Positions 5,259-30,767 of a DNA stretch of 64,000 nucleotides are shown here, piece after piece (position 1 is the first letter of the stretch; every line of letters starts with the position of its first letter). The notes under the pieces were generated by a model. The model was given only the letters and a program-made list of their open reading frames with translations, had not been told where the DNA came from and did no database searches. Position numbers and translations under genes: made by a program. The stretch spans positions 1-64,000 of the forward strand of contig WHTA01000017.1 in NCBI GenBank assembly GCA_009379825.1, given 5' to 3'. The DNA is from Streptosporangiales bacterium. GTDB lineage: Bacteria > Actinomycetota > Actinomycetes > Streptosporangiales > WHST01.

Positions 5259-5283
5259 TGGCTCCTCCATTGGGCGACCACTG

Positions 5284-6435: not shown

Positions 6436-6502
6436 AGTAACCGCGCCAAGCTCGTCGTCAACGGCTATGCTGACGCAACGCGACAGCGACGGATGGGACG
6501 GC

Positions 6503-10635: not shown

Positions 10636-10813
10636 CTTGTCAGCACGTACACCCGGCAGCCGGGTAACAAATGTCAGTGATGCGGGGGCTAGTCCGTTAC
10701 AGGAGCGGTGCCTGAGCGAGACCGGACAGACCGACCCCGTACCCCGACCGAGAGCTGCTACACAGCGAGCTCTCCTAGTAATTGTGTGCAATCCTTGACG
10801 ACGAGGAGTGCCA

Positions 10814-12339: not shown

Positions 12340-12361
12340 GCACACGAAGGGAACGCCCGAC

Positions 12362-13406
12362 ATGGCCGTGATGACACAACCTGCAGACGCCGACCAACGC
12401 AAACCGGTCGACGTCCTGCGGCTGGCCAGGCGCCGCTCCGCGGCACGGTCGATCGGTGTCGTGCTCGTGCTGCTCGCCGCGTTCTCGGTGTACGCGGTGC
12501 TCGAGAAAGGGTGCCGCACTCTACGTGCAGCGCCTGATCGACGGCGTCACCAACGGCATCCAGTACGGCCTCGTTGCCCTGTCGCTTGTGCTGGTCTTCA
12601 AGGCCACCAAGGTCATCAACTTCGCGCAGGGCGCGATGGCGCTCATCGGCACGTACCTCGCGTACACGTTCACGACGTCGCTCGGCATGCCACTCGCCGT
12701 CGCGATCGGCCTCGCGATGGTGGTCAGCGCGGTCGGCGCCGTCGGCGTGGAACGCGTACTGATCAGCCACTTCGACCCGAACAACCACCTCGCGATCGTG
12801 ATCGTGACGCTCGCCCTCTACCTAGCCTTCAACGCGATCGTCGCGATGGTCTGGGGGTTCGACCCCAAGGGCTTCCCGACGCTGTTCCCCAAGGGCTCGG
12901 ACTCCTACCTGGAGCTCGCCGGGGCGCGCCTGTACTTCACCGAGCTCGGGAACATCGGTCTCGCCGTGGCGGTCGTGGTCGCGCTCCACCTGGCCCTGAC
13001 CCGCACCAGGCTCGGGCTGCGGTTCCGGTGCGTGGCGAGCAGCGTCGACTCGGCGCGCCTGGTCGGCGTGAACATCGGCCGTACGAGCCGCGGCTGCTGG
13101 GCGCTCGCAGCAGCTGTCGGCACGCTCGCCGGCTGCCTGGCTGCGCCGTCCACCTACCTCGACCCGACGTTCATGGACAAGATCCTCGTCTACTCGTTCG
13201 CCGCGGCGACGCTCGGCGGGCTCGACAGCGTGATCGGTGCGGTCGTCGGAGGCGTCGTGGTGGGCCTGACGATCACGTTGGTCACCGGGTACGTCCCGGT
13301 GCTCGGCGGGGAGTTCGGGCTCGGCTGCGCGTTCCTTGTCATCATCGTCATCCTGCAAGTCAAGCCATCGGGGTTGCTCGGTGGCCGGCACCTGGAGCGC
13401 GTCTGA
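12362..13406 (+). pseudogene. livH: Branched-chain-type ABC importer permease (LivH-like), frameshifted
   Basis: From ATG 12362 the frame gives MAVMTQPADADQRKP and a hydrophobic segment ending VYAVLEK, then goes out of register. The +1 frame carries the real permease from KGAALYVQRLIDGVTNGIQ through the LivH core (VINFAQGAMALIGTYLAY) to RHLERV. The junction is GAGAAAGGGTGCC near 12505-12511, where one base fewer would join the frames; 1045 bp is one more than a multiple of three. Either a real insertion in the AAAGGG run or a sequence error. A downstream internal start could still make a permease, since other LivH proteins start close to QRLIDG. The stop overlaps livM (TGATG). Confidence 0.75.
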
Positions 13407-14545
13407 TGGCACTACACTTCCAACAGGGCAGCCGCCGCCTGCTCGTCGCAAAGCTGGGCCTCGCGTTCGTCGTCGCCGTCGTCCTGATCACGCTGCCGTT
13501 CATGATCGGCACGGTCTCGGGTATCGGCGCGCTCTCCCAGCTGGTGGCGTACTCGGTGGCGATCCTCGGGTTGAACCTGCTGATCGGCTACTGCGGCCAG
13601 ATCTCCCTGGGGCAGAGCGCGTTCGTGGGCCTCGGCGGCTACACGGCCGTGATCCTGGTCGCCGACCACGACTGGCCGTACCTCGCCACCGTGCCCGTCG
13701 CCTTCCTGGTCTGTGCGGTCGCGGGCGCGCTGATCGGGATGCCCGCGCTCCGCATCCGTGGCCTCTACCTGGTCACCGTGACGCTGTCGATCGCTGCGCT
13801 CTTCCCGGTGCTCGTCGACCAGTTCGACGGGCTCACCGGCGGCGCGAACGGCAAGTTCGCCAACGAGCCGATGACCGCGCCGCCGTGGTTCTTCGTCAAC
13901 CCGTACACTCTGACCGGCCCCGTCATCGACCGGTACTACGCGATCCTTGCGTTCGCCGCCCTCATGTTCCTCCTCGCCCGCAACATCGTGCGCAGCCGGA
14001 TCGGCCGCGCGATGATTGCTGTACGCGACGCGCCGTTGAGCGCCGCATCGAGCGGTGTGCCGGTGGCGAAGGTGAAGATCTTCACCTTCGCGATGAGCGC
14101 CGCGTTCGGCGGCGTGGCGGGCGCACTGCTCGTCATCCAGCTGCCCGAGGTGACCGGCGCACGGTTCGACCTCTACCTCTCCGTCTTCCTCCTGGTCGGG
14201 CTCATCACCGGAGGGAGCAAGTCGATCGTCGGTGCCATCCCAGGAGCCATCGTGTTCGTGGCGCTCCGCACCTACATCGCCGACTGGGCATCCAACCAGA
14301 CGTTCATCGAGGGTCCGCAGGGCCAGCAGCTCGTCGGCGTCATCTCCGGCGTGCTGCTGCTCGTCTGCGTCTTCCTGCTGCCCGGCGGGATCGCCGACGG
14401 CCTGAAGGGCTTGCTCAGCAAGGTCGTCGTCGTCGAACCCCGCACACCGAGCGGCTGGGAGCAGTACCGCCTGGTCACCTCACAGGACCACCCATCACGT
14501 CCTCCGGAGAGGCCGCGAGAAAGGACAAGGACAGATGTCGTTTAG
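13406..14545 (+). CDS. livM: Branched-chain-type ABC importer permease (LivM-like)
   Basis: A 379-residue integral membrane protein with about ten predicted helices. It carries the LivM signature NLLIGYCGQISLGQSAFVGLGGYTAV near residues 56-80, and IRGLYLVTVTLSIAALFPVL. It forms the transmembrane channel with LivH. ATG 13406 overlaps the livH stop. The charged C-terminal tail after VVVEPRTPSGW is longer than usual and its end overlaps the start of the binding-protein gene by 11 bp. Confidence 0.9.
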   Translation: MALHFQQGSRRLLVAKLGLAFVVAVVLITLPFMIGTVSGIGALSQLVAYSVAILGLNLLIGYCGQISLGQSAFVGLGGYTAVILVADHDWPYLATVPVAFLVCAVAGALIGMPALRIRGLYLVTVTLSIAALFPVLVDQFDGLTGGANGKFANEPMTAPPWFFVNPYTLTGPVIDRYYAILAFAALMFLLARNIVRSRIGRAMIAVRDAPLSAASSGVPVAKVKIFTFAMSAAFGGVAGALLVIQLPEVTGARFDLYLSVFLLVGLITGGSKSIVGAIPGAIVFVALRTYIADWASNQTFIEGPQGQQLVGVISGVLLLVCVFLLPGGIADGLKGLLSKVVVVEPRTPSGWEQYRLVTSQDHPSRPPERPRERTRTDVV

Positions 14546-16004
14546 TCGAAGATCAGCTGCAATGGTGCTGGCGATCGTCGTAACCGCCACCTCGCTGGCC
14601 GCATGCTCGTACTCGAAGGAGGTAAGCGACCCGGCCGACGACTCACGCTGCAAGGTCACCACCAAACCGGCGACAGGCAAGGACGACACGGCCGACGGCG
14701 CCATCCCGGCGACCAACCCGGATGCCAAGAACTGGGGCCTGGACGAGGACTGCACCTACACCGGTGCAGGTGATTTCAGCATCGACCTCAGCAAGTGCCC
14801 GGTGGGTTGGGACCTCAACTCCGGCGTCACGACGAAGATCAACCTCTTCACCAGCGTTCCGCACTCGGGTGCGCTGGCTGCGTACGGCGCCATCGGCGAC
14901 GGCATGAAGAGCTACTTCAGGTACGTCAACGAGAACGGCGGGATCTACGGCCGCAAGATCGACATGAAGATCTTCGACGACCAGTACCAGCCCGATCTCA
15001 CCAGGAAGAACGTCGACAAGGCGATCGAATCGAACGAGTACGCGGCGAGCTTCGGCCTGCTCGGCACCGCCAACAACCTCGCCGTGCGTTCGCACATGAA
15101 CAAGCAGTGCATGGGCCAGTACCTCACTGGTGCGTCCGACAACGTGCTGTTCGACCCGGGCAAGCACCCGTGGACGTCCGGCTTCGGGCTCGACTACTAT
15201 AACGAGAGCGCGATCTGGGTCGAGGCGCTGAAGCGGCAGTACCCCGAGGGTGCGAAGGTCGCGCTCGTCTCGATCGACAACGCACTCGGCAAGGCGTACG
15301 TCCAGGGCTTCAAGCGTGCGACCAAGAGCACCAAGTTCGAGGTCGTCACCGAGCAGACCAACTCACCGACCGCACCGAACCTCGACGACCAGGTGACGAC
15401 GGCGGCCGGCAGCAAGGCCGACGTCGCGATCCTGATCGAGGCGGGCACGTTCTGCACCCAAGGCATCGGCGCGATCGAGAAGAGCTCGTGGGATCCGACG
15501 CTCATCGTCTCGAACTCGTGTGCACAGATCGAGACGACGTTCGCACCCCTGCAGAAGCAAGGGCTGACGGGTAACGGCACCGAGACCGTTCGGTACTACT
15601 ACGCACCGGACGACGCGGACGTCGGTGACCCGAGGTTCGCCGCACTGGTCAGCAAGAAGCTCAAGGAGCACGGTCTCGACTCGCACAACGCGCAGTACGC
15701 CAACGGCTGGTTCTGGGCCTGGTACATCACCGCCATCCTGAAGGACGCCAGCGTGATGAAGGGTGGGTTGAACCGTGCGACGATCAACATCGCCTCGCAC
15801 CAGTACAACACCAGGTATCCGTTGATGACCGAGGGCGTGAAGGGCATGGTCAGCGGGGTGACCGACGCCTACCCGTTCGAGTCCGGCCAGGTGTACAAGT
15901 ACGCCGGCGCCACCGGCAAGAAGGCTGGCACCTTCGCACCGGTGGGCAAGCCGATCAAGAACGAAGGCGAGCTCGGCAACTACACCAAGGCACAGCGGAA
16001 GTAG
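14535..16004 (+). CDS. ABC importer substrate-binding lipoprotein (LivJ-like)
   Basis: A 489-residue extracellular binding protein. The lipoprotein signal has LAAC with Cys24, after MSFSRRSAAMVLAIVV. The mature part is a type I periplasmic-binding fold: INLFTSVPHSGALAAYGAIGDGMKSYFRYVNENGGIYGRKI, then the hinge and SFGLLGTANNL. It is larger than classical LivJ (about 370), as in actinobacterial binding proteins for aromatic or steroid-like acids. A short AAGGACAAGGACAG ribosome region precedes ATG 14535. It ends the liv operon, followed by a strong hairpin terminator. The ligand is unknown. Confidence 0.88.
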   Translation: MSFSRRSAAMVLAIVVTATSLAACSYSKEVSDPADDSRCKVTTKPATGKDDTADGAIPATNPDAKNWGLDEDCTYTGAGDFSIDLSKCPVGWDLNSGVTTKINLFTSVPHSGALAAYGAIGDGMKSYFRYVNENGGIYGRKIDMKIFDDQYQPDLTRKNVDKAIESNEYAASFGLLGTANNLAVRSHMNKQCMGQYLTGASDNVLFDPGKHPWTSGFGLDYYNESAIWVEALKRQYPEGAKVALVSIDNALGKAYVQGFKRATKSTKFEVVTEQTNSPTAPNLDDQVTTAAGSKADVAILIEAGTFCTQGIGAIEKSSWDPTLIVSNSCAQIETTFAPLQKQGLTGNGTETVRYYYAPDDADVGDPRFAALVSKKLKEHGLDSHNAQYANGWFWAWYITAILKDASVMKGGLNRATINIASHQYNTRYPLMTEGVKGMVSGVTDAYPFESGQVYKYAGATGKKAGTFAPVGKPIKNEGELGNYTKAQRK

Positions 16005-16015
16005 CAATGGCAGCC

Positions 16016-16051
16016 AGCGGGGTCCGGTACGAACACGTACCGGACCCCGCT
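16016..16051 (+). terminator. Hairpin terminator after the liv operon
   Basis: A perfect 16-bp inverted repeat (AGCGGGGTCCGGTACG and its complement) around a 4-base AACA loop starts 12 bp after the binding-protein stop. There is no U-run, as is common in high-GC actinobacteria. Confidence 0.85.
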
Positions 16052-16080
16052 GCGCTCCGGTACCTGCGAGAGCGACGTCA

Positions 16081-16758
16081 GTGACCCCCGGCCAGGTGGG
16101 TTCCGAGGTGGCGTACCAGGCGTTGCGGTCGGCCATCGTGGAGGGACGTATACGACCCGGCGACCGCATCGTCGAACAGCGGGTGGCCGCGCAGCTGGAC
16201 CTCTCCCGCACTCCCGTCCGGGAGGCGGTGCGGATGCTCGCCGCCGACGGTCTGGTGCTCGCGACGCGCCATCGCGGTGCGATCGTCCGCACCCTGGGCC
16301 GCAACGACGTGCTCGATCTCTACGACCTGTGGGCCCGGTTGGAGTCGTACGCCGCCGAGCTCGCGTCCACCCGTGCCACCGACGACGACCTCGCCGAGAT
16401 CGACACCGGCATCCGTGACTTCGCGGCGGCCGCCCAGCGCACCGATCTCAGCCAGCTCGACCTGACCCGGTTGGTCAGCGACGCGAACCGGCGAGTCCAC
16501 AACGCGATCATCGCGGCCAGCAAGCACGTCCGGCTCGCGCACATCCTGACGAGCACGGTCGACGCACCGCTGGTGTTCGAGGCGCTCCGTGCCTTCAGAC
16601 ACAGCGAGTTGGAACGCTCCAACAACTTCCACAAGATGATCCGCAACCGCATCGCAAGGGGTGAGCCGAAACGCGCCGCAGCGCTGATGTTCGAGCACAT
16701 CATGCTGGGACGCGACCAGGTTCTGCTCAGCATGGCCGCGGCCGAGGAGCACGAATGA
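16081..16758 (+). CDS. GntR-family (FCD) transcriptional regulator
   Basis: A 225-residue regulator. The winged helix spans about residues 5-72 (YQALRSAIVEGRIRPGDRI, LDLSRTPVREAVRMLAADG), followed by an all-helical FCD ligand domain with DLYDLWARLE and the metal-binding His set (HNAII, HKMIRNRI, FEHIML). GTG 16081 starts 30 bp after the liv terminator, so it has its own promoter or is read by leakage. FCD regulators sense carboxylic acids, often through a bound metal; control of the neighbouring importer is a reasonable inference. A matching TGGTATACAA element lies upstream of livG. Confidence 0.88.
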   Translation: MTPGQVGSEVAYQALRSAIVEGRIRPGDRIVEQRVAAQLDLSRTPVREAVRMLAADGLVLATRHRGAIVRTLGRNDVLDLYDLWARLESYAAELASTRATDDDLAEIDTGIRDFAAAAQRTDLSQLDLTRLVSDANRRVHNAIIAASKHVRLAHILTSTVDAPLVFEALRAFRHSELERSNNFHKMIRNRIARGEPKRAAALMFEHIMLGRDQVLLSMAAAEEHE

Positions 16759-16759: not shown

Positions 16760-17110
16760 CTAACGTGCGTCGAGGACGGCTCCGGTGAGCATGACGGCGG
16801 CCGGGCTGGTGAGGAAGTCCTCCATCGCCGACACGTCCGCGGCACCGACGAGCACGACGTTCACCCGGCACCTACGGTCGGCGTACTCCCGGGCGAGGCT
16901 ACGGACGAGCGCGCCCACCGCCGCCCGTACAGTGCCGTCGGCACACGGTTCCTCGGTCTGCACGACGACGAGCACGCCTCCGCCGTCGGCCGTAGCGACG
17001 AGCTCGTCGCGCACCCGCACGAACAGCTCCGTCAACGCCTCCGCCGTCGCTGCGGACACCACCGCGTCCACCCCGGCGGGACACCGGCCGCGTACGACGG
17101 TCACTGTCAT
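16760..17110 (-). CDS. Small SDR-like protein without cofactor or catalytic motifs
   Basis: A 116-residue protein. Its second half (AAVGALVRSLAREYADRRCRVNVVLVG, then a short tail ending LTGAVLDAR) looks like the C-terminal half of a short-chain dehydrogenase, but it lacks the TGxxxGxG motif and the Ser-Tyr-Lys set. It is coupled by ATGA to the PECR-like SDR gene upstream, so both are made together. It may be a non-catalytic partner of that SDR, or a decayed duplicate. I do not know a named family for it. Confidence 0.6.
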   Translation of the reverse strand: MTVTVVRGRCPAGVDAVVSAATAEALTELFVRVRDELVATADGGGVLVVVQTEEPCADGTVRAAVGALVRSLAREYADRRCRVNVVLVGAADVSAMEDFLTSPAAVMLTGAVLDAR

Positions 17111-17940
17111 GCCGGCTCCTCGGCGCTCGGCGGCACAAGCGAGGCAGCAGCGTCGACCAGGCCGGCGCCGCCGTCCAGCTCCACCGCCGTGCCACTGACC
17201 GCGTCGAAGACGCCGCTGCCCATCGCAGCGACCCACTCGGCGCCCTCGTCGAGCCCGGTGTCGCGACCGAGCAGGCTCGCCCGTACGCCCGCGTCGAGCG
17301 CCTGGGTCGGCACCTCGCCCGCCACGCCTGCCGTGTGCACGGTGCCGGGCGCCAGGCAGAACAGCCGGATCCCTTCACCTGCCCACTGCCGCGCGAGCGA
17401 ACGGGTCAACGCCGCCATACCTGCCCGCGCCGTCGTCGAGTGCACGAGCCCGGCGATGCCGCGGTCGGGTGCCGACAGCGACAGCGTGACGACCCGGCCG
17501 CCTGCGGCGGCTAGCGCGCGGCGGGCCGTCCTGGTCAGGTGCGCGGTCGCCGTCAGGTTCAGGTCGAGCACCGCGCCGAAGCCCCGTGCCGAGATCGCGG
17601 TTGCCGGTGCCACGAACTGGCCGCCGGCGTTGTTAACGAGCAGGTCGAGCCGGTCGAGTCCCGCGACGAATGTCGCTACAGCACTGCGATCCCTGATGTC
17701 CAGCTGTTCGACGCGCAGCCGCTCCGGTGCGTCGGTACTCGCCCGGGTCTCGGCGAGTGGCTCGACCCGGCGGCCGACGCCGACGACGTGTGCGCCCAGC
17801 GCGAGCAACCGCAGCGTGACCGCGCGCCCGATACCGGTGCCTGCGCCGGTGACCAAGGCCGTCCTGCCGGCGAGGCAGTCCGGCGCCAACACCCGTACCG
17901 ATGCCGCCGACGGCCGCGCGACGGCAGGGCGCCCGGTCAT
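17107..17940 (-). CDS. SDR-family reductase of the peroxisomal trans-2-enoyl-CoA reductase type
   Basis: A 277-residue SDR: LAGRTALVTGAGTGIGRAV near residue 24, LLVNNAGGQFVAPA, and HSTTARAGMAALTRSLARQWA where ordinary SDRs have YxxxK. NNAGGQF together with a HSxxARAG helix is the hallmark, known to me from PECR/dienoyl-reductase-like proteins, of enzymes acting on 2-enoyl-CoA or citronellal-type substrates. Thus the missing Tyr is a family trait and not damage. Coupled by ATGA to the small SDR-like gene. It lies 16 bp after the TetR gene in the same leftward operon. Confidence 0.78.
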   Translation of the reverse strand: MTGRPAVARPSAASVRVLAPDCLAGRTALVTGAGTGIGRAVTLRLLALGAHVVGVGRRVEPLAETRASTDAPERLRVEQLDIRDRSAVATFVAGLDRLDLLVNNAGGQFVAPATAISARGFGAVLDLNLTATAHLTRTARRALAAAGGRVVTLSLSAPDRGIAGLVHSTTARAGMAALTRSLARQWAGEGIRLFCLAPGTVHTAGVAGEVPTQALDAGVRASLLGRDTGLDEGAEWVAAMGSGVFDAVSGTAVELDGGAGLVDAAASLVPPSAEEPA

Positions 17941-17956: not shown

Positions 17957-18649
17957 TCAGCGCTTGCGGCGCTTGCTCGGCTCCAGCGCGGACAACGCCA
18001 TCTCGATGAACGTGTCGCCGAAGTCGGTCAACGGTCGCGGACCGGACGGGTCGTACCAGCGGTGGATCCAGTTGAACATGCCGAGGATGCCGAGCACGGC
18101 CGTCGCCGGCTCGATGTCGTCGCGGAACTCGCCTGCGCGCATGCCGTCGTCGATCACCTGGCCGAGCATCCGGCCGTACCTGTCGGCGTTGCTGCGGATG
18201 CGCTCGGCCTCCGGCCCGGACATCACCTTGTGCACGTTCTCGCTGAGGAAGATGAACAGCTCTGGCTTCTCCACCATCGTCTGCACGTACTCGCGCAACG
18301 CCTGGGCCAGCTTGTCGCGCGCGGAGTCGGGCTGGGCCGCGATCTCCTCCAGCCGGCTGCGCATAGTGTCGATCGGCTGGTCGAGGAGCGCGACGAGGAG
18401 CTCTTCCTTCGTCCCGACGTAGTAGTACAGCGTGGCGCGGTTGATCCCCACCTCGGTAGCGACGTCCTCGAGCGTGCTCTGCGCGTACCCGAGCCGGGCG
18501 AACACGGCAGCAGCGCTCGCCATGATCTCGTTCCATCGCTCATCCGAGCGGCGGCCACTCGCCTCGCGCCGCTCCTGTCGGCGACGGGCGATGTCGCTTC
18601 GCGGTGCAGCAGCCCGGTTCTGCGCGCTCGCCTGCCCCGGAGTCGACAC
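17957..18649 (-). CDS. TetR-family transcriptional regulator (230 aa)
   Basis: The helix-turn-helix lies at about residues 40-85 (IMASAAAVFARLGYAQSTLEDVATEVGINRATLYYYVGTKEELL) after a basic N-terminal arm (ARRRQERREASGRR). The C-terminal domain (RYGRMLGQVIDDGMRAGEF, MFNWIHRWYDP) is of the TetR_C type common in actinobacterial acyl-CoA regulators. GTG 18649 follows AAAGGAG. It belongs to the leftward operon that begins with the flavin reductase and is preceded by operator copy 3, so it is one of two candidates for the island's operator-binding protein. Confidence 0.88.
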   Translation of the reverse strand: MSTPGQASAQNRAAAPRSDIARRRQERREASGRRSDERWNEIMASAAAVFARLGYAQSTLEDVATEVGINRATLYYYVGTKEELLVALLDQPIDTMRSRLEEIAAQPDSARDKLAQALREYVQTMVEKPELFIFLSENVHKVMSGPEAERIRSNADRYGRMLGQVIDDGMRAGEFRDDIEPATAVLGILGMFNWIHRWYDPSGPRPLTDFGDTFIEMALSALEPSKRRKR

Positions 18650-18716: not shown

Positions 18717-19601
18717 TCAACGGGGCGACACTGTGCCGCGGTGGATCGGCGCCGGTTCCAGCCCAAGGTCGAATGCCACCAACTGTCCGGTGAGCCCGTA
18801 CGTGACGTACAGGCTGCCGTCGTCACCGATGCAGCAGTTCGTCGGCTGCGTACCCTCGCCGGTCTCTAGGGTGTCGGACAGCTCGCCGTCCGGGGCGTAG
18901 ACGAAGACGGCGTGCCCCACACTGCCGCACACGTAAGCATTGCCGGCAGCGTCGAAGCAGAACCCGTCCGGCATGCCTGCGGGCAGCTTCGCGAACACCG
19001 CCTGTTCCCTGATCTCGCCGCCGGCCAGATCGAAGCTGAGCACCTTGCGGGTTAGTGACTGGGTGATGAACAGGCGACCGTCAGGTGCGATCTCGATGCC
19101 GTTGGGCATGGCCGGCACCTCGACGGCCTGCCGCTGCGCACCATCCGCGCCGATCGCCACGATGTGGCCGGCGTTGATGTTGCGCAGCTCCTCCCAGTTG
19201 GCGCTGTCGGTGACGTACAGCGTTCCGTCCGGGCCGAAGCACAGGTCGTTCGGCCGATGCGGCGCAGGACCGGGCAGCGTGCCACCCACGCCGGTGACCG
19301 TGCCGTCGACGTCGACGCGCTGCACGCAGCCGTCGAACTGCCTGGGCGCGTACCAGTAGCCCATGCCCCCCGCCGACAGCCCGCCGTTGTTGGCGACGTA
19401 GCACTCCCCCGCGGCGCCGGCCACGCTCGCGTTGGGCGCGCCGCCGCAGTCGCCGACCACGGTCACCGTGCCGTCGGCGACCACCCGCGTCACCGACTCG
19501 CCCTTCATCTCGGCGACGAGCACCGCGCCGTCACCGAGGTAGGCAGGGCCTTCGGGGAAGCGCAGCTCACTGGTGATGACCCGGGGCGCCGGCGTGCTCA
19601 T
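18717..19601 (-). CDS. SMP-30/gluconolactonase-like hydrolase
   Basis: A 294-residue six-bladed beta-propeller of the SMP-30/LRE family: LRFPEGPAYLGDGAVLVAEM with the first metal Glu, RPNDLCFGPDGTLYVTDS with Asn and Asp ligands, MPNGIEIAPDGRLFITQS, and MPDGFCFDAAGNAYVCG. Such enzymes hydrolyse lactones with a divalent metal. The start overlaps the stop of the LLM monooxygenase (ATGA), so both are made together. This suggests the monooxygenase makes a lactone that this enzyme opens. The pairing is seen in the sequence; the reaction is inference. Confidence 0.85.
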   Translation of the reverse strand: MSTPAPRVITSELRFPEGPAYLGDGAVLVAEMKGESVTRVVADGTVTVVGDCGGAPNASVAGAAGECYVANNGGLSAGGMGYWYAPRQFDGCVQRVDVDGTVTGVGGTLPGPAPHRPNDLCFGPDGTLYVTDSANWEELRNINAGHIVAIGADGAQRQAVEVPAMPNGIEIAPDGRLFITQSLTRKVLSFDLAGGEIREQAVFAKLPAGMPDGFCFDAAGNAYVCGSVGHAVFVYAPDGELSDTLETGEGTQPTNCCIGDDGSLYVTYGLTGQLVAFDLGLEPAPIHRGTVSPR

Positions 19602-20701
19602 GCGCTGACCACCCCGTCGAGCTCCGCGAAGTCGACGTCAGGCAACGGCTTCAGCCGAGGCATGACCTCGCTCGCGAACAGCTTCATGTTGGACTCGGCG
19701 AACTCGTAGCTCATCCCGGAGAACGAGCAGACCGCGTTGAACCCGTTGTTGCCGACCTGCGAACGGATCTCCATGATCCGCTCGTAGCACTCGTCAGGCG
19801 TGCCGTAGATCTGCAGCTCGATGAAGTTCGAGACCACCTTGTCGGAGCCGTTCTTGCCGATGTACGACGCGAGCCGATTGTAGTACTCGTAGCCCTGCGT
19901 GCTCTGGAAGTGCCGGCCGCCGAGCTCGTAGTGCGACATCACCGACTCGTAGTACGCGCCGATGTACTCCTGCGCCAGGTCCTTGGCCTTCTTGCCGTCC
20001 TTGTCGCAGACGACCCAACCGGTGACTATCGGCGCCGGCGGCTCCTCGTTCTTCAGCTCGCGGTACTGCGAACGGTACGAGCGCATGTCCTCCGCGACGT
20101 CCTGCCAGTCCTTCTGCGGGTTGATCAGGATGCCGGCGCCGACGTCCGCCATGATCTTCACCGACTCCGGCGACACAGCGGCCGCGTAGAGCCGGTTGCG
20201 GAACGACTTCACCGGCCGTGGGCAGAGGTCACGCCGCGGGATCTGGTAGAACTCACCGTCGGCTTCGAGCACGCCGGTCTCGAGCGCACGCATCACGATC
20301 TCCGCCGACTCGACGAACCGGGCGCGCGACTCGTCCATCGGGATGCGCAGCCCGTCGAACTCGATCCGGCCGAGGCCCCGCCCCATGCCGAAGATGAACC
20401 TGCCGTTGCTCATCAGGTCGAGGACGGTGACCTGTTCGGCGACGCGTACCGGGTCGTGCCACGGCAGGATGACGGCGCCGGAACCGAGTTGGATGTTCGT
20501 CGTGCGCCCGGCCATGTACGACAGGAACTGCACCGGGTCCGGGCACATGGTGTACGACGTGAAGTGGTGCTCGGTCGCCCAGATCATCTCGAACCCGAGC
20601 GGCTCGGCGAGATCGCACAGACGCAGCTCGTCCGCGTAGACCCGCTGGTCGTCGGCGGTGTCGCCGTCGCCTTGGAAGATCGTGGTGTAGCCGACGCGCA
20701 T
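19598..20701 (-). CDS. LLM-class flavin-dependent monooxygenase (367 aa)
   Basis: A luciferase-like flavoenzyme with LAEPLGFEMIWATEHHF near residues 31-47, TNIQLGSGAVILPWHDPVRVAEQ, and RFIFGMGRGLGRIEF. Length and EHHF motif fit FMN-dependent two-component monooxygenases, including type II Baeyer-Villiger enzymes such as diketocamphane monooxygenase. The flavin reductase gene lies 24 bp upstream in the operon and the lactonase gene is coupled downstream, which supports a ketone to lactone role. Starts at ATG 20701 with a GAGGAGAACCACC ribosome region. Substrate unknown. Confidence 0.87.
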   Translation of the reverse strand: MRVGYTTIFQGDGDTADDQRVYADELRLCDLAEPLGFEMIWATEHHFTSYTMCPDPVQFLSYMAGRTTNIQLGSGAVILPWHDPVRVAEQVTVLDLMSNGRFIFGMGRGLGRIEFDGLRIPMDESRARFVESAEIVMRALETGVLEADGEFYQIPRRDLCPRPVKSFRNRLYAAAVSPESVKIMADVGAGILINPQKDWQDVAEDMRSYRSQYRELKNEEPPAPIVTGWVVCDKDGKKAKDLAQEYIGAYYESVMSHYELGGRHFQSTQGYEYYNRLASYIGKNGSDKVVSNFIELQIYGTPDECYERIMEIRSQVGNNGFNAVCSFSGMSYEFAESNMKLFASEVMPRLKPLPDVDFAELDGVVSA

Positions 20702-20725
20702 GGTGGTTCTCCTCGAGGTCGTGAG

Positions 20726-21211
20726 TCAGCGGGAGCCGAGACGTTGGTAGGTGCCGTGGCAGAAGATGAGCGGCCGCCCCTGCGACTGGACCCACATGTC
20801 GTGGACGTGGCCGAGGACGAGCTTGTGGTCGCCGGCGTCCGTGATGTCGGCGGTGGTGCAGTCGAACCAGGCGAGCGACTCGTCGAGCACGGGCTGGCCG
20901 AGCCCGGACGGACGCCAGGGGACACCGGCGAACTTGTCACCACCCGACGACGCGAACCGGCGCGACGTCTCGATGTGGTCCTCGCCGAGCACGCTGACCG
21001 CGAACCGGCCGAGCGGTTCGACCCTCGGCCAACTGGTGGACGTCTTGGCAACGAGGAAACCGGCCAACGGCGGGTCGAGCGACACCGACATGAACGTCCC
21101 GATGGCGAGCCCGGCGGGACCGCTGTCGGTCGCCCCGGCAACGACCGCGACCTCCGTCGGCACGTGCCCGAGGACGTGCCGGAACCGCTCCTGCGTGATC
21201 GTGGTCATCAT
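20726..21211 (-). CDS. Flavin reductase-like protein (FMN reductase partner)
   Basis: About 161 residues of the flavin_reduct family: FRHVLGHVPTEVAVVAG, GLAIGTFMSVSLDPPLAGFLVAK, GRFAVSVLGEDH and the C-terminal GDHKLVLGHVHDM with the conserved GDH His. These proteins reduce FMN or FAD with NAD(P)H and pass it to an oxygenase. ATG 21211 or 21208 (MTTITQERF) is taken because family proteins begin there and a GGGGG sequence precedes it. First gene of the leftward operon with LLM monooxygenase, lactonase, TetR, PECR-like SDR and small SDR-like protein. Confidence 0.87.
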   Translation of the reverse strand: MMTTITQERFRHVLGHVPTEVAVVAGATDSGPAGLAIGTFMSVSLDPPLAGFLVAKTSTSWPRVEPLGRFAVSVLGEDHIETSRRFASSGGDKFAGVPWRPSGLGQPVLDESLAWFDCTTADITDAGDHKLVLGHVHDMWVQSQGRPLIFCHGTYQRLGSR

Positions 21212-21308
21212 CGCCCCCGCCACGGTGTATCCGGGGCCAGGTCCACAGCGGTCACCATCCATGTCATCACTAACGTTGACGACTACGCTAGAGCACCGCC
21301 GCCTCTGC

Positions 21309-21326
21309 GTCAACGTTAACGTAGAC
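21309..21326 (+). promoter_or_regulatory. Putative TetR-type operator, copy 3 (closest to consensus)
   Basis: GTCAACGTTAACGTAGAC is a near-perfect palindrome. Read toward the flavin reductase it ends in TTGACG, a -35 hexamer with TAGCGT 17 bp further (a fair -10), so bound repressor would cover the -35. Confidence 0.7.
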
Positions 21327-21339
21327 GAATGCCAACGGT

Positions 21340-21980
21340 AAGGGCAGGCCCGCTGGTTACGGGTGTGCGGGCCGCTGGGTCGTAGCTGTGCGGGCAGCTG
21401 GGTCGCAGGTGTGCGGCGCGGCTGGCACCAGGGAGTGCGGACAACTGCCGGCCACCTGGTGGTGCGGCGCGGCTGCCGGCCACCTGGCGGTGCGGGGGCA
21501 GCTGCCGGCCACCGGCTGTGCGGCGCAGCTGACTACAGGCCGACCGGCTGGCTGTGGGCCGTGCAGGCGGTTGCCGGAGCTGGCTGGTGATAGCCGTGCC
21601 GGGCCCGCTGATGGTGGCCGGCCAGCGCAGCGGGCCGGCGCGCGGTGGGCAGCCTGCTCGGCCGGCGCAGCCCGACCGACCAGCGGCAGGCAGTTGGTTG
21701 TGGGTTGGTTCGGGCAGCTGACTACAGGCGGGCCGGCTGGTGGTGGCCCAGGCAGCCCGGCCGGCCGGCGCGGGCTGGTTGGGCTCGTTGCAGGCGGCCC
21801 GGCCGGCGGTGGCCGGCAGGCGGTTGGCAGGCCAGCTGGTGGTGCCGGCCAGCCCAAACCAGGCGTGGCCTAGCTGGGCTGGTTGCAGGCGGCTCGGCGG
21901 GCTGGTCGGCCGCGCGGCGGGCAGACGCGCAAGGCGACCACCCGGGGCACGGTTCGCGGCGGCCAGGTGGCCCGCCTCCC
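21340..21980. other. Gene-free GC-rich repeat block between two leftward operons
   Basis: Between the flavin-reductase promoter and the hydratase gene lies about 640 bp of CTGG/CCGGC-rich, G-skewed sequence. Beyond the tandem array, a unit of about 40 bp beginning CAGCTGACTACAGGC occurs at 21526 and again at 21715 (189 bp apart), and TTGCAGGCGG-type words recur. Open frames here code for low-complexity Pro/Gly/Cys text with no family resemblance. I see no gene; 21980-22069 is likewise empty. Confidence 0.6.
21375..21528 (+). repeat. Degenerate tandem repeat, six CTG-phased units of 23-29 bp
   Basis: Six consecutive units each begin with CTG and end in a GTGCGGsGCrG-like block: 21375-21397, 21398-21421, 21422-21444, 21445-21472, 21473-21501 and 21502-21528. 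Units 4 to 6 share CTGCCGGCCACC. No convincing gene overlaps the array. Confidence 0.65.
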
Positions 21981-22069: not shown

Positions 22070-22831
22070 TCAGGAGCGGCGGAAGCGGTCCACGGTGGCC
22101 TGGATCTCCGGCTTGGTGGAGGCGGATGCCTGCGCCCAGGACTCGAGCTCCAGGGCGGCGTCGAAGCCGCCGTTGCGGGCGGTGCGTACGGAGGTCTTGA
22201 TGTCGCGGGCGAGTTCCGGGTCGAGCTTTGCCCACTGGCCGGCCAGCTCCTGGGCGCGCGCGAGCGGGTCGTCGGCGAGCTTGAGCGCCAGGCCGGCGCG
22301 TACCGCTGCCTCGCCCTCTACGGCGCCGCCGCCGAGCAGGATCGCCATCGCCTGCTGGGTGCCCAGCGTGTCGACGAGGAACCACGTACAGCCGCCGCCT
22401 GGGTGCAGGCCGATCTTCGAGAACGTGGCGGCGAACGACGCCCTCGGTCCTGCGATCCGGACGTCGCAGCTCATCGCCAGGTTGAGGCCGGCGCCGATCG
22501 CCGGGCCCTGTACGGCGGCGACGGTGGGGATCGGCAGGTCGCGGATGCGCAGGAAGCTGTCGTACACGCGATGCAGGTGCGTACGGGTCTGCGCCACCGT
22601 ACGGCTGCTGTCGCCGAACAGGGCGGGCAGGTCCGCGCCCGCGCAGAACGCCTTGCCCGCGCCGGTGACGAGCAGTACGCGGGCGTCCACGTCAGCGGCC
22701 ACCGTCTCGACGGCGGCGCCGAGCTCCGCACACAGCTCCATGTCCAGGCAGTTGCGGCGGTCAGGGTCGTCGAGGGTCAACGTCCACACGCCCGCGTCGG
22801 CGCTCAGCGCGACCCTGTTCTGCCCAGTCAT
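22070..22831 (-). CDS. Enoyl-CoA hydratase/isomerase family protein (253 aa)
   Basis: A crotonase-fold enzyme: WTLTLDDPDRRNCLDMELC, the oxyanion segment GAGKAFCAGADLPALFG near residue 63, and VAAVQGPAIGAGLNLAMSCDVRIAG around 105-130. A GGGCTWFL segment sits where hydratases have the second catalytic Glu, so dehydratase activity is uncertain. ATG 22831 overlaps the stop of the fused acyl-CoA dehydrogenase (ATGA). It is last in a seven-gene coupled operon running from 30678. Confidence 0.87.
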   Translation of the reverse strand: MTGQNRVALSADAGVWTLTLDDPDRRNCLDMELCAELGAAVETVAADVDARVLLVTGAGKAFCAGADLPALFGDSSRTVAQTRTHLHRVYDSFLRIRDLPIPTVAAVQGPAIGAGLNLAMSCDVRIAGPRASFAATFSKIGLHPGGGCTWFLVDTLGTQQAMAILLGGGAVEGEAAVRAGLALKLADDPLARAQELAGQWAKLDPELARDIKTSVRTARNGGFDAALELESWAQASASTKPEIQATVDRFRRS

Positions 22832-24987
22832 GTCCGTTCTCCGATCACCCAGTCCCACAGCGGATCCTGCCCGAGGTCGCACACCCGCCGGCCGATTCGG
22901 CGCGCCCAGTAGCGCTCGCCGCCGACCTCGTCCCGCCACGACCACAGCCGGCGGGTCACCAGGTGCAGCGGGTGCTCGCGGGTGATCCCGATCGCGCCGT
23001 GCAGCTGGTGCGCCGACCTGGTCACCGTCGTGGCTGCCCGCGCCGCGACAACGGCCGCGACGGCTATGCGGTCGCCGTCGTCGGCTGCCACCGCGGACTC
23101 GAGCGCCACCTCGGCCAGCGTGACCTGTTCGAACATCCCGGCGAGGTGTGCGCCGACGTCCTGGAACTTGGCCAGCGGCCGGCCGAACTGCTCGCGTACG
23201 GCGACGTGCTCGGCCGTGTGTGCCAGGGCGGTCTGCAACGCGCCTACCGTCTGGGCGGTACGCAACAGCGCGCCGACGGCGAGCGGCTCCTCGTCCGCGC
23301 CCAACGTCGCGATCCGCGTCGCCACGGCCTGCTCGAAGTGCACGGTGTCGCGCGGTTCGCCGGCCAGGTTCGCCGCCGGTGTACGGGTCACGCCACCGGC
23401 GTCGCCGGCCACCTCGAGCAGCACGCGGCTGTCGTCGGTGTCGGTCGCCACGGCGAGCAACGTCGCCGCCGCGCATCCCCACGGCACGCGCTGCACGGTC
23501 CCCGTGACGGTGTCGCCGTCGACGCGCAACGTCTCAGTTCCCTGGCGCGGCAGCACCACGGTCGAGGGCAGTCCGGAGACCTCGTGCCCGTACCGCGCGG
23601 CGAGCAACCTGGCCCAGGCGGACTCGGCCAGCGGCATGCTCACCACGTGCCGGCCGCACGCCTGCACCAGCGGCACCAGGTCGGCGAGCTCACCGCCGGA
23701 CCCGCCCAGCTCCTCCGCGCAACCGACACCGGGCCACCCGAGCTCGACGGCCGTGGCCCAGACCCCGCCGGGAGCGAGCTCGGTGTCCGGTTCCCCGCCA
23801 CGCTCGCTCAGTACGTCGTCGGCGACCTCGGCGAGCTCGGGGGTGCCGATCGGCCGGGTCAGCGCACGCCCGCCGTTGCGCACCTCGCGCGCGACGATGG
23901 TGCGGAGGATGGCGGTCACGCCGCCGCGGATGGTGAACCCGGGTGCGGCGAGCACACCCTCGGCGAGCAGCTGCGCGGCACCGCCGCCGAACGGGTCAGG
24001 TTCGACGTCGAGCACCGTCCGCGCGAGCTCGTTGACGTCCTGCTCGAACAGCGTGCCGACGTCCTTCAGCACGGCGGCAGGCAGCACCGGCGCCGCACCG
24101 CGGTCGATCTCGTCGGCGACCCGCAGCCCGAGCCTGCGCAGTGTCGCGACGAGCGCGAAGGCGTCGCCCACGCGTTCGACGTCGGCGTCGCTGTCCGCCG
24201 CTGCGACGACCTCGAGCAGCAGCGGGTACGTGCTGAGCACGCGCTCCATCCCGCCGCGCTCGAACGCCAGCTGTTCGGTGACCTGGGTCCAGCCGTTGCC
24301 CGGCCGGCCGAGCACCTCGCTATCGGGCACGAAGACGTCGTCGAAGGTGACCTCGTTGAAGTGGTGGTCGCCACGCAGGTCGTAGATCGGCCGCACCTCG
24401 ACGCCCGCGGCGGTCATGTCCACGATGAACTCGGTGAGCCCCTCGTGCTTGTCGCCCGAGGCGTCCGAACGGGCGAGCACGTACGCGTGCGTGGCGCGGT
24501 GCGCGTGGCTGGTCCAGATCTTGCGGCCGGTGATCCGCCAGCCACCGTCGACCTGCGTCGCCTTCGTCCGCACCGACGCGAGGTCGGACCCGGACTCCGT
24601 CTCGCTCATGCCGAGGCAGAACGTCACGTGGCCGGCGGCGATCCGCGGCAGGTAACGGCGCTGCAGCTCGGGCGTGCCGTAGCGCAGGATGGCCGGGCCG
24701 ATCTGCCTGTCGCCCATCCAGTGCCCGGCGACAGGCGCGCCGGTACGCAGCAGCTCCTCGGTGAGCACCAGCCGGGCGACGGCCGACCGCTCGCTGCCGC
24801 CGAGGTGGCGTGGCCAGGTCAGGCCGATCCAGCCGCGTTCTGCGAGTGCACGGCTGAACTCCGGGTCGTACCCGCGCAGCCACGCGTCGCACTGCGGCTC
24901 GATACGTCCCGCGCGCCGCCACTGCTCGACCAGCTCGCGCACCTCCGCGCGCAGCTTCGAGACGTCGCTGGCCTCGGCCACGGTCAT
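22828..24987 (-). CDS. Fused two-domain acyl-CoA dehydrogenase (FadE34-like architecture)
   Basis: About 719 residues made of two acyl-CoA dehydrogenase units in one chain. Unit 1 (about 1-370) has FCLGMSETESGSDLASVRTKA and WRITGRKIWTSHAH. Unit 2 (about 380-719) has VREQFGRPLAKFQDVGAHLAGM and HQLHGAIGITREHPLHL. Most acyl-CoA dehydrogenases are about 390 residues; in actinobacterial steroid and bile-acid catabolism they form heteromers or such fusions (FadE34 type), acting on bulky polycyclic acyl-CoAs. ATG 24987 sits 8 bases after GAGGAG and is preferred to GTG 24996. Coupled to the hydratase by ATGA. Confidence 0.85.
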   Translation of the reverse strand: MTVAEASDVSKLRAEVRELVEQWRRAGRIEPQCDAWLRGYDPEFSRALAERGWIGLTWPRHLGGSERSAVARLVLTEELLRTGAPVAGHWMGDRQIGPAILRYGTPELQRRYLPRIAAGHVTFCLGMSETESGSDLASVRTKATQVDGGWRITGRKIWTSHAHRATHAYVLARSDASGDKHEGLTEFIVDMTAAGVEVRPIYDLRGDHHFNEVTFDDVFVPDSEVLGRPGNGWTQVTEQLAFERGGMERVLSTYPLLLEVVAAADSDADVERVGDAFALVATLRRLGLRVADEIDRGAAPVLPAAVLKDVGTLFEQDVNELARTVLDVEPDPFGGGAAQLLAEGVLAAPGFTIRGGVTAILRTIVAREVRNGGRALTRPIGTPELAEVADDVLSERGGEPDTELAPGGVWATAVELGWPGVGCAEELGGSGGELADLVPLVQACGRHVVSMPLAESAWARLLAARYGHEVSGLPSTVVLPRQGTETLRVDGDTVTGTVQRVPWGCAAATLLAVATDTDDSRVLLEVAGDAGGVTRTPAANLAGEPRDTVHFEQAVATRIATLGADEEPLAVGALLRTAQTVGALQTALAHTAEHVAVREQFGRPLAKFQDVGAHLAGMFEQVTLAEVALESAVAADDGDRIAVAAVVAARAATTVTRSAHQLHGAIGITREHPLHLVTRRLWSWRDEVGGERYWARRIGRRVCDLGQDPLWDWVIGERT

Positions 24988-25006
24988 CGCCACCACTCCT
25001 CGTTGC

Positions 25007-26434
25007 TCAGCGGCGCGCCGCCTGCCGCACCAACAGCTGGGCCGGCCGGTAACGCGGGTCGCCCGTACGCTCGGCCATCGAGCGCAGGCTGCTGCACACG
25101 ACGTCGGCGCCGTCGGCCGCGAGTTGCTCGAACGGCCCGCGCGGGTGGTTCATGCCGAGCGCCAGCGCCGTGTCGATGTCGGCCGGCGTTGCGATCCCCT
25201 CCTCGACCAGCGTGCTCGCCTCGTTCGCCATGCAGTGCGCCAGCCGGTCGGCCACCAGGCCGGGCAACGCCGGCACCTCCACAGCGGCAGCACCGAGCCC
25301 GTCCAGCATGGCGTAGACGAATGACGGCACCTCGATTCCGGCGACCTCGTCGTGCACCACCTCGGCGAACACACCACCGTGCGGCGCCTGGTGCAGATGC
25401 AGCCAGCCGACGCCGTCGGGGAGCGCCTCGAGCCAGTGCCCGTCCGAACTGTCTACCACCACAGGACCGGCGGCCGCCATGTCGCGTACCTCACGCAGGT
25501 CGCGCTCGGTGGGTGCACCGCAGCGGTAGATCTGCACGCCTGGATCCCCCGCCTCGCCCGGCTGCCTGGTCACCCGGGCGAGCGCGGCGCGCGGTTTCTC
25601 CGCCGCGTAGTCGTAGTAGCCATGACCGGCCGCCCGGCCGGTCATGCCGCTGCGGACGAGCCTGCGTACCAACGGGACCGGCCGGTAGCGCGGGTCGCCG
25701 AACTCGCGCAGTGCGGTCTCCGACGACGCCAGGTGGGTGTGCAGCCCGGTGAAGTCGAGCAGCGTCAACGGCCCCATCGGGTGCCCCAGTGCGCCGCAGG
25801 CCACGGCGTCGACCACGCCAGGCTCGACGCCCTGCGACACCAGCAGCTGTGCCTCGTAGTACAGCGGGCGGCAGACCCGGTTGACGATGAAGTTCGGCGA
25901 GTCGGCGCACGTGACGGCGGTCTTGCCAAGGGCAGCGACCAGTTCGCGCGCACGGTCGGCGGTCCGTGCGCTCGTGCCGGCCGCAACGATCACCTCGACC
26001 AGCCGCATCTTCGTCGGCGGGTTGAAGAAGTGCATGCCGACGACCCGTGCGGGGTCGCCGAACGCGTGCCCCATCTCGCCGATGCTCAGCGACGACGTGT
26101 TCGACGCGACGACCAGCTCGGGACCGCCAGCGGCCGCGATGTCCGCGAGCAGCTGGCGCTTGACGGCCATGTCCTCGACGGCGGCCTCGACGACGAGCTC
26201 CGCCTGCGACACCGCGTCCGCCAGCTCGGCACCCTGCATGTCGTGCAGCGTCTCGCCGTCCTTGTCGGCTTCGGCACGGATGCGGTCAAGTCCCGTGGCC
26301 GTGTCCTCCGGCGAGATGTCCACGACGCTCACGCGGGCACCGGCGCGGTCGAAGACCCGCGCAATGCCGCGGCCCATCGGCCCGAGACCGACGACGAGCA
26401 CACCGACGCCGGCGAGCTTGCCCTCGCCGTTCAT
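25007..26434 (-). CDS. 3-hydroxyacyl-CoA dehydrogenase
   Basis: A 475-residue enzyme. The Rossmann motif GLGPMGRGIARVFDRAG is at about residues 17-33, the NAD domain continues to VASNTSSLSIGEM and HFFNPPTKMRLVEVI (catalytic His), then CADSPNFIVNRV leads into one C-terminal helical domain and a second follows near 380-470 (PGLVADRLAHCMANEA, MNHPRGPFE). Two C-terminal domains in tandem is the 3-hydroxybutyryl/adipyl-CoA dehydrogenase layout. It makes 3-ketoacyl-CoA for the thiolase, whose stop overlaps its ATG as ATGA. Confidence 0.9.
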   Translation of the reverse strand: MNGEGKLAGVGVLVVGLGPMGRGIARVFDRAGARVSVVDISPEDTATGLDRIRAEADKDGETLHDMQGAELADAVSQAELVVEAAVEDMAVKRQLLADIAAAGGPELVVASNTSSLSIGEMGHAFGDPARVVGMHFFNPPTKMRLVEVIVAAGTSARTADRARELVAALGKTAVTCADSPNFIVNRVCRPLYYEAQLLVSQGVEPGVVDAVACGALGHPMGPLTLLDFTGLHTHLASSETALREFGDPRYRPVPLVRRLVRSGMTGRAAGHGYYDYAAEKPRAALARVTRQPGEAGDPGVQIYRCGAPTERDLREVRDMAAAGPVVVDSSDGHWLEALPDGVGWLHLHQAPHGGVFAEVVHDEVAGIEVPSFVYAMLDGLGAAAVEVPALPGLVADRLAHCMANEASTLVEEGIATPADIDTALALGMNHPRGPFEQLAADGADVVCSSLRSMAERTGDPRYRPAQLLVRQAARR

Positions 26435-27609
26435 GCAGCCACCCGCTCGATCACCGCGGCCACGCCCATGCCACCGCCGACGCAGAGGCTCGCCACTCCG
26501 AGCTGCAGGTCGCGCCGTTCGAGCTCGGCGAGCAACGTGACGACGAGCCGCAGGCCGCTCTGCCCGGTCGGGTGGCCGAGTGCGATGCCGCCGCCGTTGA
26601 CGTTCACAACGTCCTCGTCCAGACCGAGGGCGCGCACGTTCTGCACGATCTGCGCACCGAACGCCTCGTTGATCTCGAACAGGTCGACGTCGGTGGGCGC
26701 CAACCCGGCCGCATCCAGCGCGGCGGGGATCGCGTACGCCGGGCCGATGCCCATCATCGTCGGGTCGACACCCACCTGGGCGAACGACCGGATACGGGCG
26801 CGCGGCGTCAATCCGTTGCGCTGCAACGAATCTCCGCTCACCACGACGATCCCTGCTGCACCGTCGGCCATCTGGCTCGCGTTGCCCGCCGTGACCGTGC
26901 CGTCCTTCTCGAACGACGGCTTCAGCCCGGCCAGCTTCTCCACCGTGGAGTCGCGGCGCAGACCCTCGTCGGTTGCCAGCGAGCCCTCGTCGGTCTCGAC
27001 CGGCACGACCTGCGACGCGAACCTGCCCTCGTCCCACGCCGCCGCGAGACACTGGTGGCTGCGTACCGACCACTCGTCCTGGGCGCCGCGCTCGACGCCG
27101 AACTCGCGCGCCACCTTCTCGGCCGTCTGCCCCATGTTCATGCCACAGCTCGGGTCGGTGCCGCCGTCGCGCCAGCCGTCGTAGATGGTGATGTCGCCTC
27201 GGCGCGCACCGCCCCACCGCAGTGCGGACGGCGCGAGGAACGGCATCGTGGACATGCTCTCCGCCGAGACGGCGAGCACGGTGTCCGCGCTGCCGACGGC
27301 GACCGCCTGCCGTGCCAGGTCGAGCACCTTCAGCCCGGACGCGCACGCCATGTTCACGGTCTGCGCCGGAACCCGTTGCCCGACACCGGATTTCAGCGAG
27401 ATCTGCCGTCCCGGGTTCGGGCCGTTGCCGGCCTGCCGGCAGTTGCTCACGATGGTCTCGCCGACGAGCGCGGCGTCGATCCCGGCCCGTTCGACGGCCG
27501 CACGCCCGGCGATGCCACCGAGCTCGACGACCGGCACCTCACGCAGCGAGCCGCCGTAGCGACCGTTCGGCGTGCGCACGCCGCCGACCAGGAATGCCTC
27601 TCGGTTCAT
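26431..27609 (-). CDS. Acetyl-CoA acetyltransferase/3-ketoacyl-CoA thiolase
   Basis: A 392-residue thiolase with all catalytic parts: the acyl-accepting Cys89 in VNMACASGLK, INEAFGAQ, GGGIALGHPTGQSG with the catalytic His, and CVGGGMG with the second Cys near the C-terminus. It cleaves 3-ketoacyl-CoA with CoA to give acetyl-CoA (or propionyl-CoA) and a shortened chain. Its position between ligase and hydroxyacyl dehydrogenase in the coupled operon fits beta-oxidation of the island's substrate. Overlaps the ligase gene by ATGA. Confidence 0.92.
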   Translation of the reverse strand: MNREAFLVGGVRTPNGRYGGSLREVPVVELGGIAGRAAVERAGIDAALVGETIVSNCRQAGNGPNPGRQISLKSGVGQRVPAQTVNMACASGLKVLDLARQAVAVGSADTVLAVSAESMSTMPFLAPSALRWGGARRGDITIYDGWRDGGTDPSCGMNMGQTAEKVAREFGVERGAQDEWSVRSHQCLAAAWDEGRFASQVVPVETDEGSLATDEGLRRDSTVEKLAGLKPSFEKDGTVTAGNASQMADGAAGIVVVSGDSLQRNGLTPRARIRSFAQVGVDPTMMGIGPAYAIPAALDAAGLAPTDVDLFEINEAFGAQIVQNVRALGLDEDVVNVNGGGIALGHPTGQSGLRLVVTLLAELERRDLQLGVASLCVGGGMGVAAVIERVAA

Positions 27610-30678: not shown

Positions 30679-30724
30679 AGCGACGCTCCCGTCCTCGACT
30701 GCGCGGGTACCTACCGTAGCGTAT

Positions 30725-30742
30725 GTCAACGCAACCGTAGAC
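30725..30742 (+). promoter_or_regulatory. Putative TetR-type operator, copy 4
   Basis: GTCAACGCAACCGTAGAC, 47 bp upstream of the acyl-CoA dehydrogenase start. It keeps both conserved halves of copies 1 and 3. It heads the operon that encodes a TetR regulator. Confidence 0.65.
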
Positions 30743-30767
30743 AAAAGCCCTCTGGCCTGTCAAGATC

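Follow-up and report, generated by a model that had tools for sequence, protein, structure and literature searches.

A flavin reductase, a luciferase-like monooxygenase and an SMP-30 protein in one streptosporangial operon: a possible Baeyer-Villiger module with its own lactonase

Genes for luciferase-like monooxygenases (LLMs) are numerous in genomes such as that of the Streptosporangiales bacterium considered here, whereas, according to PMC12239570, Baeyer-Villiger activity has been proven for very few LLMs. In a stretch of 64,000 nucleotides of this genome (contig WHTA01000017.1, positions 1 to 64,000, hereafter the window), a flavin reductase gene, an LLM gene (LLM1) and a gene of the SMP-30/gluconolactonase family follow one another on the minus strand. 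Do these genes encode a route from ketone to lactone to hydroxy acid, as a preliminary description had suggested? The evidence leads us to give an even chance to the reading that the operon of LLM1 encodes a two-component Baeyer-Villiger monooxygenase (BVMO) dependent on flavin mononucleotide (FMN), together with a dedicated lactonase. The genes concerned are the following, where SDR stands for short-chain dehydrogenase/reductase and CoA for coenzyme A.

20726-21211, minus strand: flavin reductase (Flavin_Reduct, PF01613, 130.5 bits, cut-off 27), proposed supplier of reduced FMN
19598-20701, minus strand: LLM1, luciferase-like FMN monooxygenase of a LuxA-side subfamily (Bac_luciferase, PF00296, 223.7 bits, cut-off 27.9; trees; fold search)
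18717-19601, minus strand: SMP-30/gluconolactonase-family protein, putative lactonase (SGL, PF08450, 111.2 bits, cut-off 26.3)
17957-18649, minus strand: TetR-family regulator, penultimate gene of the operon (by position; best NCBIfam profile a FadR-type TetR, 62.9 bits, under its cut-off of 200)
17107-17940, minus strand: SDR-like protein, last gene of the operon (NCBIfam PRK07576, 113.6 bits, and 2,4-dienoyl-CoA reductase, 104.2 bits, each under its cut-off)

Coordinates, strand and Pfam scores agree with the consecutive order and the overlap described at first. Indeed, the plus strand has TCAT at 19598-19601, which means that the stop of LLM1 and the start of the lactonase share ATGA, and 24 bp separate the reductase from LLM1. 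The open frame of the reductase covers 20726-21313 with a likely ATG start at 21211, and its nearest NCBIfam profile is HsaB (159.3 bits, under its cut-off of 230). Since the TetR gene sits 67 bp beyond the lactonase gene and the SDR gene 16 bp beyond that of TetR, the operon probably comprises five genes, from 21211 to 17107, and is longer than first described.

In the proposed route, the flavin reductase would make FMNH2 for LLM1, which would bind it, form a C4a-peroxyflavin and attack the carbonyl carbon of the substrate in Baeyer-Villiger fashion. A cyclic ketone, probably alicyclic or terpenoid/steroid-like, would be converted by LLM1 to a lactone, and the metal-dependent SMP-30 protein, translationally coupled to LLM1, would open this lactone to a hydroxy acid. 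The TetR protein probably represses the operon via a palindrome at 21308-21327, and via the same palindrome it probably controls a second LLM gene (LLM2) and divergent E1 genes.

Profiles, fold matches and both of the trees that were built place LLM1 among the FMN-type LLMs, on the luciferase side. The best of the F420-type profiles, TIGR03619, gave 108.2 bits against a cut-off of 166.9, all of them being under cut-off among the families listed (25 of 28), and the NtaA/DmoA-type profile TIGR03860 gave 24.9 bits against 279.7. The grouping with F420-dependent or alkane/nitrilotriacetate-type enzymes that the preliminary description had named as fatal to its proposal was thus not found, and the scores rule out an F420-dependent or nitrilotriacetate identity. 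Sequence searches of the PDB returned as best matches the homodimeric luciferase 8cbb (1e-38), LuxA (6e-35) and RslO1 (9e-33). In a tree of 50 rows, LLM1 lies inside a subfamily of 33 rows (100/98); this subfamily, LuxA with 8cbb, RslO1, and 3,6-diketocamphane monooxygenase (DKCMO) with LLM2 and the LLM of plasmid pNL2 together make up a clade of 39 rows (100/98), which stands apart from the F420-type row and LLM3.

The architecture of a type II BVMO is present, namely a luciferase-like TIM barrel and a separate FMN reductase, both Pfam families being over cut-off. In addition, LuxAB with an added flavin reductase has been reported to turn the cyclic ketone bicyclo[3.2.0]hept-2-en-6-one into lactones (PMC9864536), so that Baeyer-Villiger chemistry stays plausible for LLM1. 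Of the class assigned at first, type II and diketocamphane-like, the two-component FMN system and the Baeyer-Villiger-competent clade hold, and membership among the diketocamphane enzymes falls. In particular, the PDB sequence search matched DKCMO to LLM1 with an E-value of 0.0012 over 80 residues only, the pairwise match is confined to 78 residues, and LLM1 belongs to a separate subfamily in both trees; DKCMO itself is a long branch of unsure placement that moves between the 50-row tree and a second tree of 24 rows.

The second component to be judged is the SMP-30 protein. Its nearest solved chains are 7ris, a 'beta-propeller lactonase', and 8djf, a gluconolactonase (E about 1.5e-28); non-lactonases, for example DFPase, have this fold too, and lactone hydrolysis is here putative. 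Four residues, E17, N118, N167 and D212, are invariant in the three related proteins of the window, of Pseudonocardia and of a genome designated G027, and they correspond to the metal-site positions of SMP-30 (Glu, Asn and Asp ligands). The structure model of the protein was too poor to be used (pLDDT, the predicted local distance difference test, 54.5).

Within the 6.15 Mb genome, profile searches found 46 Bac_luciferase, 6 Flavin_Reduct and 5 SGL matches, and it is only at this locus that a reductase (one of six) or an SGL match (one of five) adjoins an LLM. Another 32 LLM places of the same genome served as control, 31 of them being used after one (L101) was dropped where the LLM was not called; among the 65 operon partners of these 31 LLMs, phmmer found neither a flavin reductase nor an SGL protein.

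The pairing recurs elsewhere. Among 72,556 plasmid records, the LLM1 matches listed first belong to Pseudonocardia sp. EC080619-01 and to EC080610-09, its sister (43%), a Rhodococcus plasmid record having a slightly better E-value at 42%; the same two Pseudonocardia records hold the best plasmid matches of the SMP-30 protein (171 bits at 37.6%), none of the 13 others exceeding 98 bits. On a Pseudonocardia plasmid (L013), SMP-30, an adenosine monophosphate (AMP)-forming ligase and an LLM1-type LLM are encoded in one run, 12464-16104, with a 1-bp overlap and a 21-bp gap, the set that one would expect if a lactone is to be opened and the product activated with CoA. G027 holds the best SMP-30 relative found in genomes (48-49%); its gene comes after a TetR gene and lies three genes away from an LLM gene whose product shares 38% identity with LLM2. 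The run in question (L083, 2029-9463) holds genes for a cytochrome P450, the LLM2-like LLM, a 3-beta-hydroxysteroid dehydrogenase/epimerase-like protein, TetR and SMP-30, and the frame of its LLM extends past the usual LLM length.

To which genes is the operon tied by regulation? The elements and genes on which the answer depends are these.

21308-21327, upstream of the flavin reductase: near-perfect 20-bp palindrome CGTCAACGTTAACGTAGACG, operator candidate
21271-21281, plus strand: half-site TAACGTTGACG, inverted partner of the palindrome
6417-6436, in the intergenic region of LLM2 and E1 alpha: the palindrome again, with 3 mismatches
5284-6366, minus strand: LLM2, luciferase-like monooxygenase of the progesterone-BVMO type (33% identity to the pNL2 LLM; clade support 100/99)
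6467-7555, plus strand: 2-oxoacid dehydrogenase-like E1 alpha, divergent from LLM2 (PF00676, 254.9 bits)
7552-8568, plus strand: E1 beta subunit (PF02779, PF02780)
4052-5270, minus strand: broken gene for an AMP-forming acyl-CoA ligase, behind LLM2 (two frames, with a stop and a frame change, about 130 core residues missing)
3309-4055, minus strand: SDR in the gene run of LLM2 (PF13561, 182.9 bits)

Across the 6.15 Mb genome, the pattern CGTCWACGTTAACGTWGACG with up to 3 mismatches allowed matches just two sites, 21308-21327 and 6417-6436, and the reversed pattern used as control gave 0 matches. The TetR protein of the operon is the candidate binder. As the palindrome is common to these two places only, the regulon is reassigned to LLM2 and the E1 genes, which would be the partners of the operon; the E1 alpha/beta pair, 6467-8568, shares the palindrome with the divergent LLM2. 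The preliminary description had instead placed LLM1 in one regulon with the genes of CoA activation and beta-oxidation, and this part of it is not borne out. The beta-oxidation operon (22828-30744, minus strand) encodes two acyl-CoA dehydrogenases, a 3-hydroxyacyl-CoA dehydrogenase (25010-26431), a thiolase, a PaaK-like ligase and a TetR regulator; its own perfect palindrome, CGATATGCCTTG-N5-CAAGGCATATCG, lies at 30768-30796 before a divergent enoyl-CoA hydratase gene. A common regulon is unsupported because that operon has its own TetR and a different palindrome.

LLM2 brings in the chemistry of better known relatives. Over its full length (384 columns) it is 33% identical to the sole LLM on Novosphingobium aromaticivorans pNL2, and it groups with this protein and the G027 LLM (100/99) in the 24-row tree. 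The pNL2 gene, which precedes genes for a helix-turn-helix regulator and a steroid isomerase, is presumably Saro_3594. The product of Saro_3594 is given as 88% identical to EGO55_13860 of Caenibius, which in E. coli extracts converts progesterone to testosterone acetate by Baeyer-Villiger oxidation (PMC12239570). Through the shared palindrome the operon is linked to LLM2; as relatives of LLM2 act on progesterone, the choice of first substrates is narrowed. A wider proposal, which we offer tentatively and hold to be doubtful, is that LLM1 defines a family of catabolic type II Baeyer-Villiger enzymes within the luciferase branch, one that evolved separately from the diketocamphane and progesterone enzymes and has a co-translated SMP-30 lactonase, and that the lineages of LLM1 and LLM2 would be joined in one two-site palindrome regulon.

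Several results weigh against LLM1 being a Baeyer-Villiger enzyme with a dedicated lactonase, and they are set out here with the alternatives that they favour. By sequence, LLM1 is nearer to the aldehyde-oxidising luciferase than to any proven BVMO: its subfamily stands next to LuxA/8cbb in the 50-row tree (96/78), and LLM1 stands beside LuxA (81/89, unstarred) in the 24-row tree, to which the G027 sequence was added and in which the position of DKCMO shifts. In the latter, forcing the LLM1 rows into an exclusive clade with the BVMO rows cost 10.5 log units (p-AU, the p-value of the approximately unbiased test, 0.0375), and such a clade is mildly rejected. LLM1 may then be a luciferase-like aldehyde monooxygenase that would convert an alkanal or lactol to an acid or lactone, the SMP-30 protein hydrolysing the activated or cyclised product. 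LuxA and 8cbb are indeed its nearest characterised sisters as well as being among its best sequence and fold matches, and the His of the EHHF motif aligns in LLM1. Yet the luciferase alpha profile (NF052254) reaches 136.8 bits against a cut-off of 600, no lux-type genes are found among the partner families listed, and the recurring SDR, P450, Rieske and CoA-ligase genes look like ring catabolism; we regard this alternative as unlikely.

The fold comparison points in a further direction. It rests on a predicted LLM1 structure of middling confidence (pLDDT 67.1, predicted template-modelling score 0.72), of which the overall fold only was used. The top match is RslO1 (7bip; Z 31.5, 313 residues, root-mean-square deviation (rmsd) 2.8), and LuxA and 8cbb are also at Z about 31; the diketocamphane monooxygenase 5aec follows at Z 26.5 (326 residues, rmsd 3.8), the F420 enzymes at about 26, and the structures of SsuD, the nitrilotriacetate type and RutA at 23-25. 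Accordingly one may consider that LLM1 epoxidises or hydroxylates in the manner of RslO1/MsnO8, with SMP-30 opening an epoxide-derived lactone or one already present in the substrate, since RslO1 is proposed to epoxidise with the flavin reductase RslO2 (PMC8093152). However, RslO1 ties with LuxA in Z and falls outside the LLM1-LuxA group in the trees, and LLM2, which shares the palindrome, is of the BVMO type, so we consider such an activity distinctly improbable. Cleavage of a C-N or C-S bond or of an amide in the style of RutA, SsuD or NtaA, with SMP-30 acting on the released product, would suit the superfamily, whose members with a separate reductase are often of this kind; it is very improbable in view of the NtaA/DmoA score given above and of Z values of 23-25 as compared with 31.

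As for the lactonase, the SMP-30 fold and the conserved ligand positions uphold the partner first proposed for LLM1, and a fixed pairing of the two is not upheld. No SMP-30 gene lies beside the five closest relatives of LLM1 (L065, 59%; L046, 56%; L009, 54%; L010, 53%; L047, 50%), SMP-30 is an operon partner at only 2 of 32 loci of the LLM1 subfamily, and these two results do not support a fixed association with the subfamily. Six other SMP-30 relatives were compared: one (G027) has an LLM within four genes, and in G197 an LLM is found at the very end of the stretch. Chance adjacency of three unrelated genes fits the different neighbours of the closest LLM1 relatives and is nevertheless barely credible given the ATGA overlap, the 24-bp gap, two neighbours each unique in the genome, and the recurrence of an LLM with SMP-30 in Pseudonocardia and near the LLM2-like gene of G027.

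Two points bear on the steps before and after the proposed oxidation, and one on its regulation. The operon SDR may not be a ketone-making enzyme, since the catalytic Tyr-Lys motif usual for the family was not seen in its sequence and its scores lie near dienoyl-CoA reductase-type profiles; the SDRs near LLM2, unlike it, look canonical. Ester hydrolases occur at about 7 of the 32 subfamily loci as compared with at least 2 hydrolases in the 31 control loci, a small excess. Finally, the palindrome of the CGTCAACGTTAACGTAGACG type is absent at the beta-oxidation operon.

The hydrolase count comes from a survey of operon partners in which gene calls were made by a simple G+C-position method with the longest starts, so that the partners are approximate; each tally covers its first 25 Pfam families, out of 63 and 103 respectively. 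Left out were L017 and L071 (no LLM called), L070 (near-identical to L032), and L025, L072 and L011 (outside the subfamily). The 32 loci gave 61 partners, including 6 AMP ligases, 6 SDRs, 3 flavin reductases, 3 P450 and 3 Rieske proteins, 2 RibBA, 2 Abhydrolase_3, 2 SGL and 1 beta-lactamase-fold protein, as well as 1 S15/CocE-type hydrolase and an alpha/beta hydrolase in the run of L014; the 65 control partners included, among the families listed, 1 AMP ligase, 1 SDR and 2 alpha/beta hydrolases. The pattern of oxygenase, dehydrogenase, LLM, hydrolase and ligase fits the catabolism of ring ketones. An enrichment of ester hydrolases is suggestive only, because each tally gives its first 25 families and the background differs, the subfamily loci coming from many genomes and the control loci from one. 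In Rhodococcus rhodochrous pGD02.2.1 (L014, 15001-22324), an LLM1-type gene is followed by genes for a flavin reductase, RibBA, a GAF-domain regulator, a phosphotransferase and an acyl-CoA dehydrogenase, and L048 has the same run, which includes a flavin-supply gene. LLM1-type genes are patchy, being found in 6 of 396 genomes of a phylum sample, in 12 of 296 from one class, in 5 of 200 from the order and in 1 of 3 from a family sample, the phylum and order counts including the genome of the window.

How does the proposed Baeyer-Villiger and lactonase module compare with known systems? The pathway of cyclohexanol degradation, ChnA-ChnB-ChnC, uses an alcohol dehydrogenase, a BVMO and a lactonase, the BVMO being a type I enzyme dependent on flavin adenine dinucleotide (FAD) and the lactonase an alpha/beta-hydrolase; the logic is shared, with an LLM and an SMP-30 protein here instead of these two. 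The diketocamphane monooxygenases (3,6-DKCMO, PDB 4uwm/5aec) resemble LLM1 in LLM fold, separate FMN reductase, catabolic setting and membership of the 39-row clade, but differ in the short match and the separate long branch noted above; in camphor breakdown, the ring of the product is said to fall apart spontaneously (PMC5395668), with no dedicated SMP-30 enzyme involved. The progesterone LLM of the pdc cluster (EGO55_13860) is a relative of LLM2 with a TetR-type regulator in its cluster, as here, LLM1 being only 24% identical to its pNL2 homologue, and the words SMP-30, lactonase and gluconolactonase are absent from the main text of PMC12239570. LuxA and 8cbb, the nearest characterised branch, are FMNH2-dependent; LLM1 differs in lying far under the luciferase NCBIfam cut-off and in having catabolic neighbours, not lux genes. 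RslO1/RslO2 of rishirilide biosynthesis is likewise a two-component FMN system, but a biosynthetic one with a proposed epoxidation (PMC8093152). AbmE2/AbmZ of neoabyssomicin biosynthesis again pairs an LLM with a flavin reductase, and is said to carry out a Baeyer-Villiger oxidation (as cited in PMC12239570).

Type II BVMOs and SMP-30 lactonases are each known. In the open-licence PMC literature searched, neither an LLM Baeyer-Villiger enzyme paired with an SMP-30 lactonase in one operon nor a two-LLM regulon was found. Because reductase, putative lactonase and regulator are all encoded in one compact operon, an LLM subfamily becomes directly testable, the build-up of lactone offering a handle for selection, and the operon could yield new biocatalysts.

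Some features of the surroundings may be added. The broken CoA ligase behind LLM2 is either a decayed gene or an assembly fault, and a frame change splits another SDR gene, 8856-9760 on the minus strand. The DNA between the two palindrome sites encodes, at 10808-16004 on the plus strand, a branched-chain-type ATP-binding cassette importer (two ATPases, permease, binding protein), a possible importer of the substrate, before which there is no copy of the palindrome. A scan for promoters and terminators found none. On the minus strand, about 1.6 kb without a called gene separates the operon from the upstream acyl-CoA dehydrogenase gene, and this gene-poor stretch holds two 23-bp tandem copies at 21364-21409.

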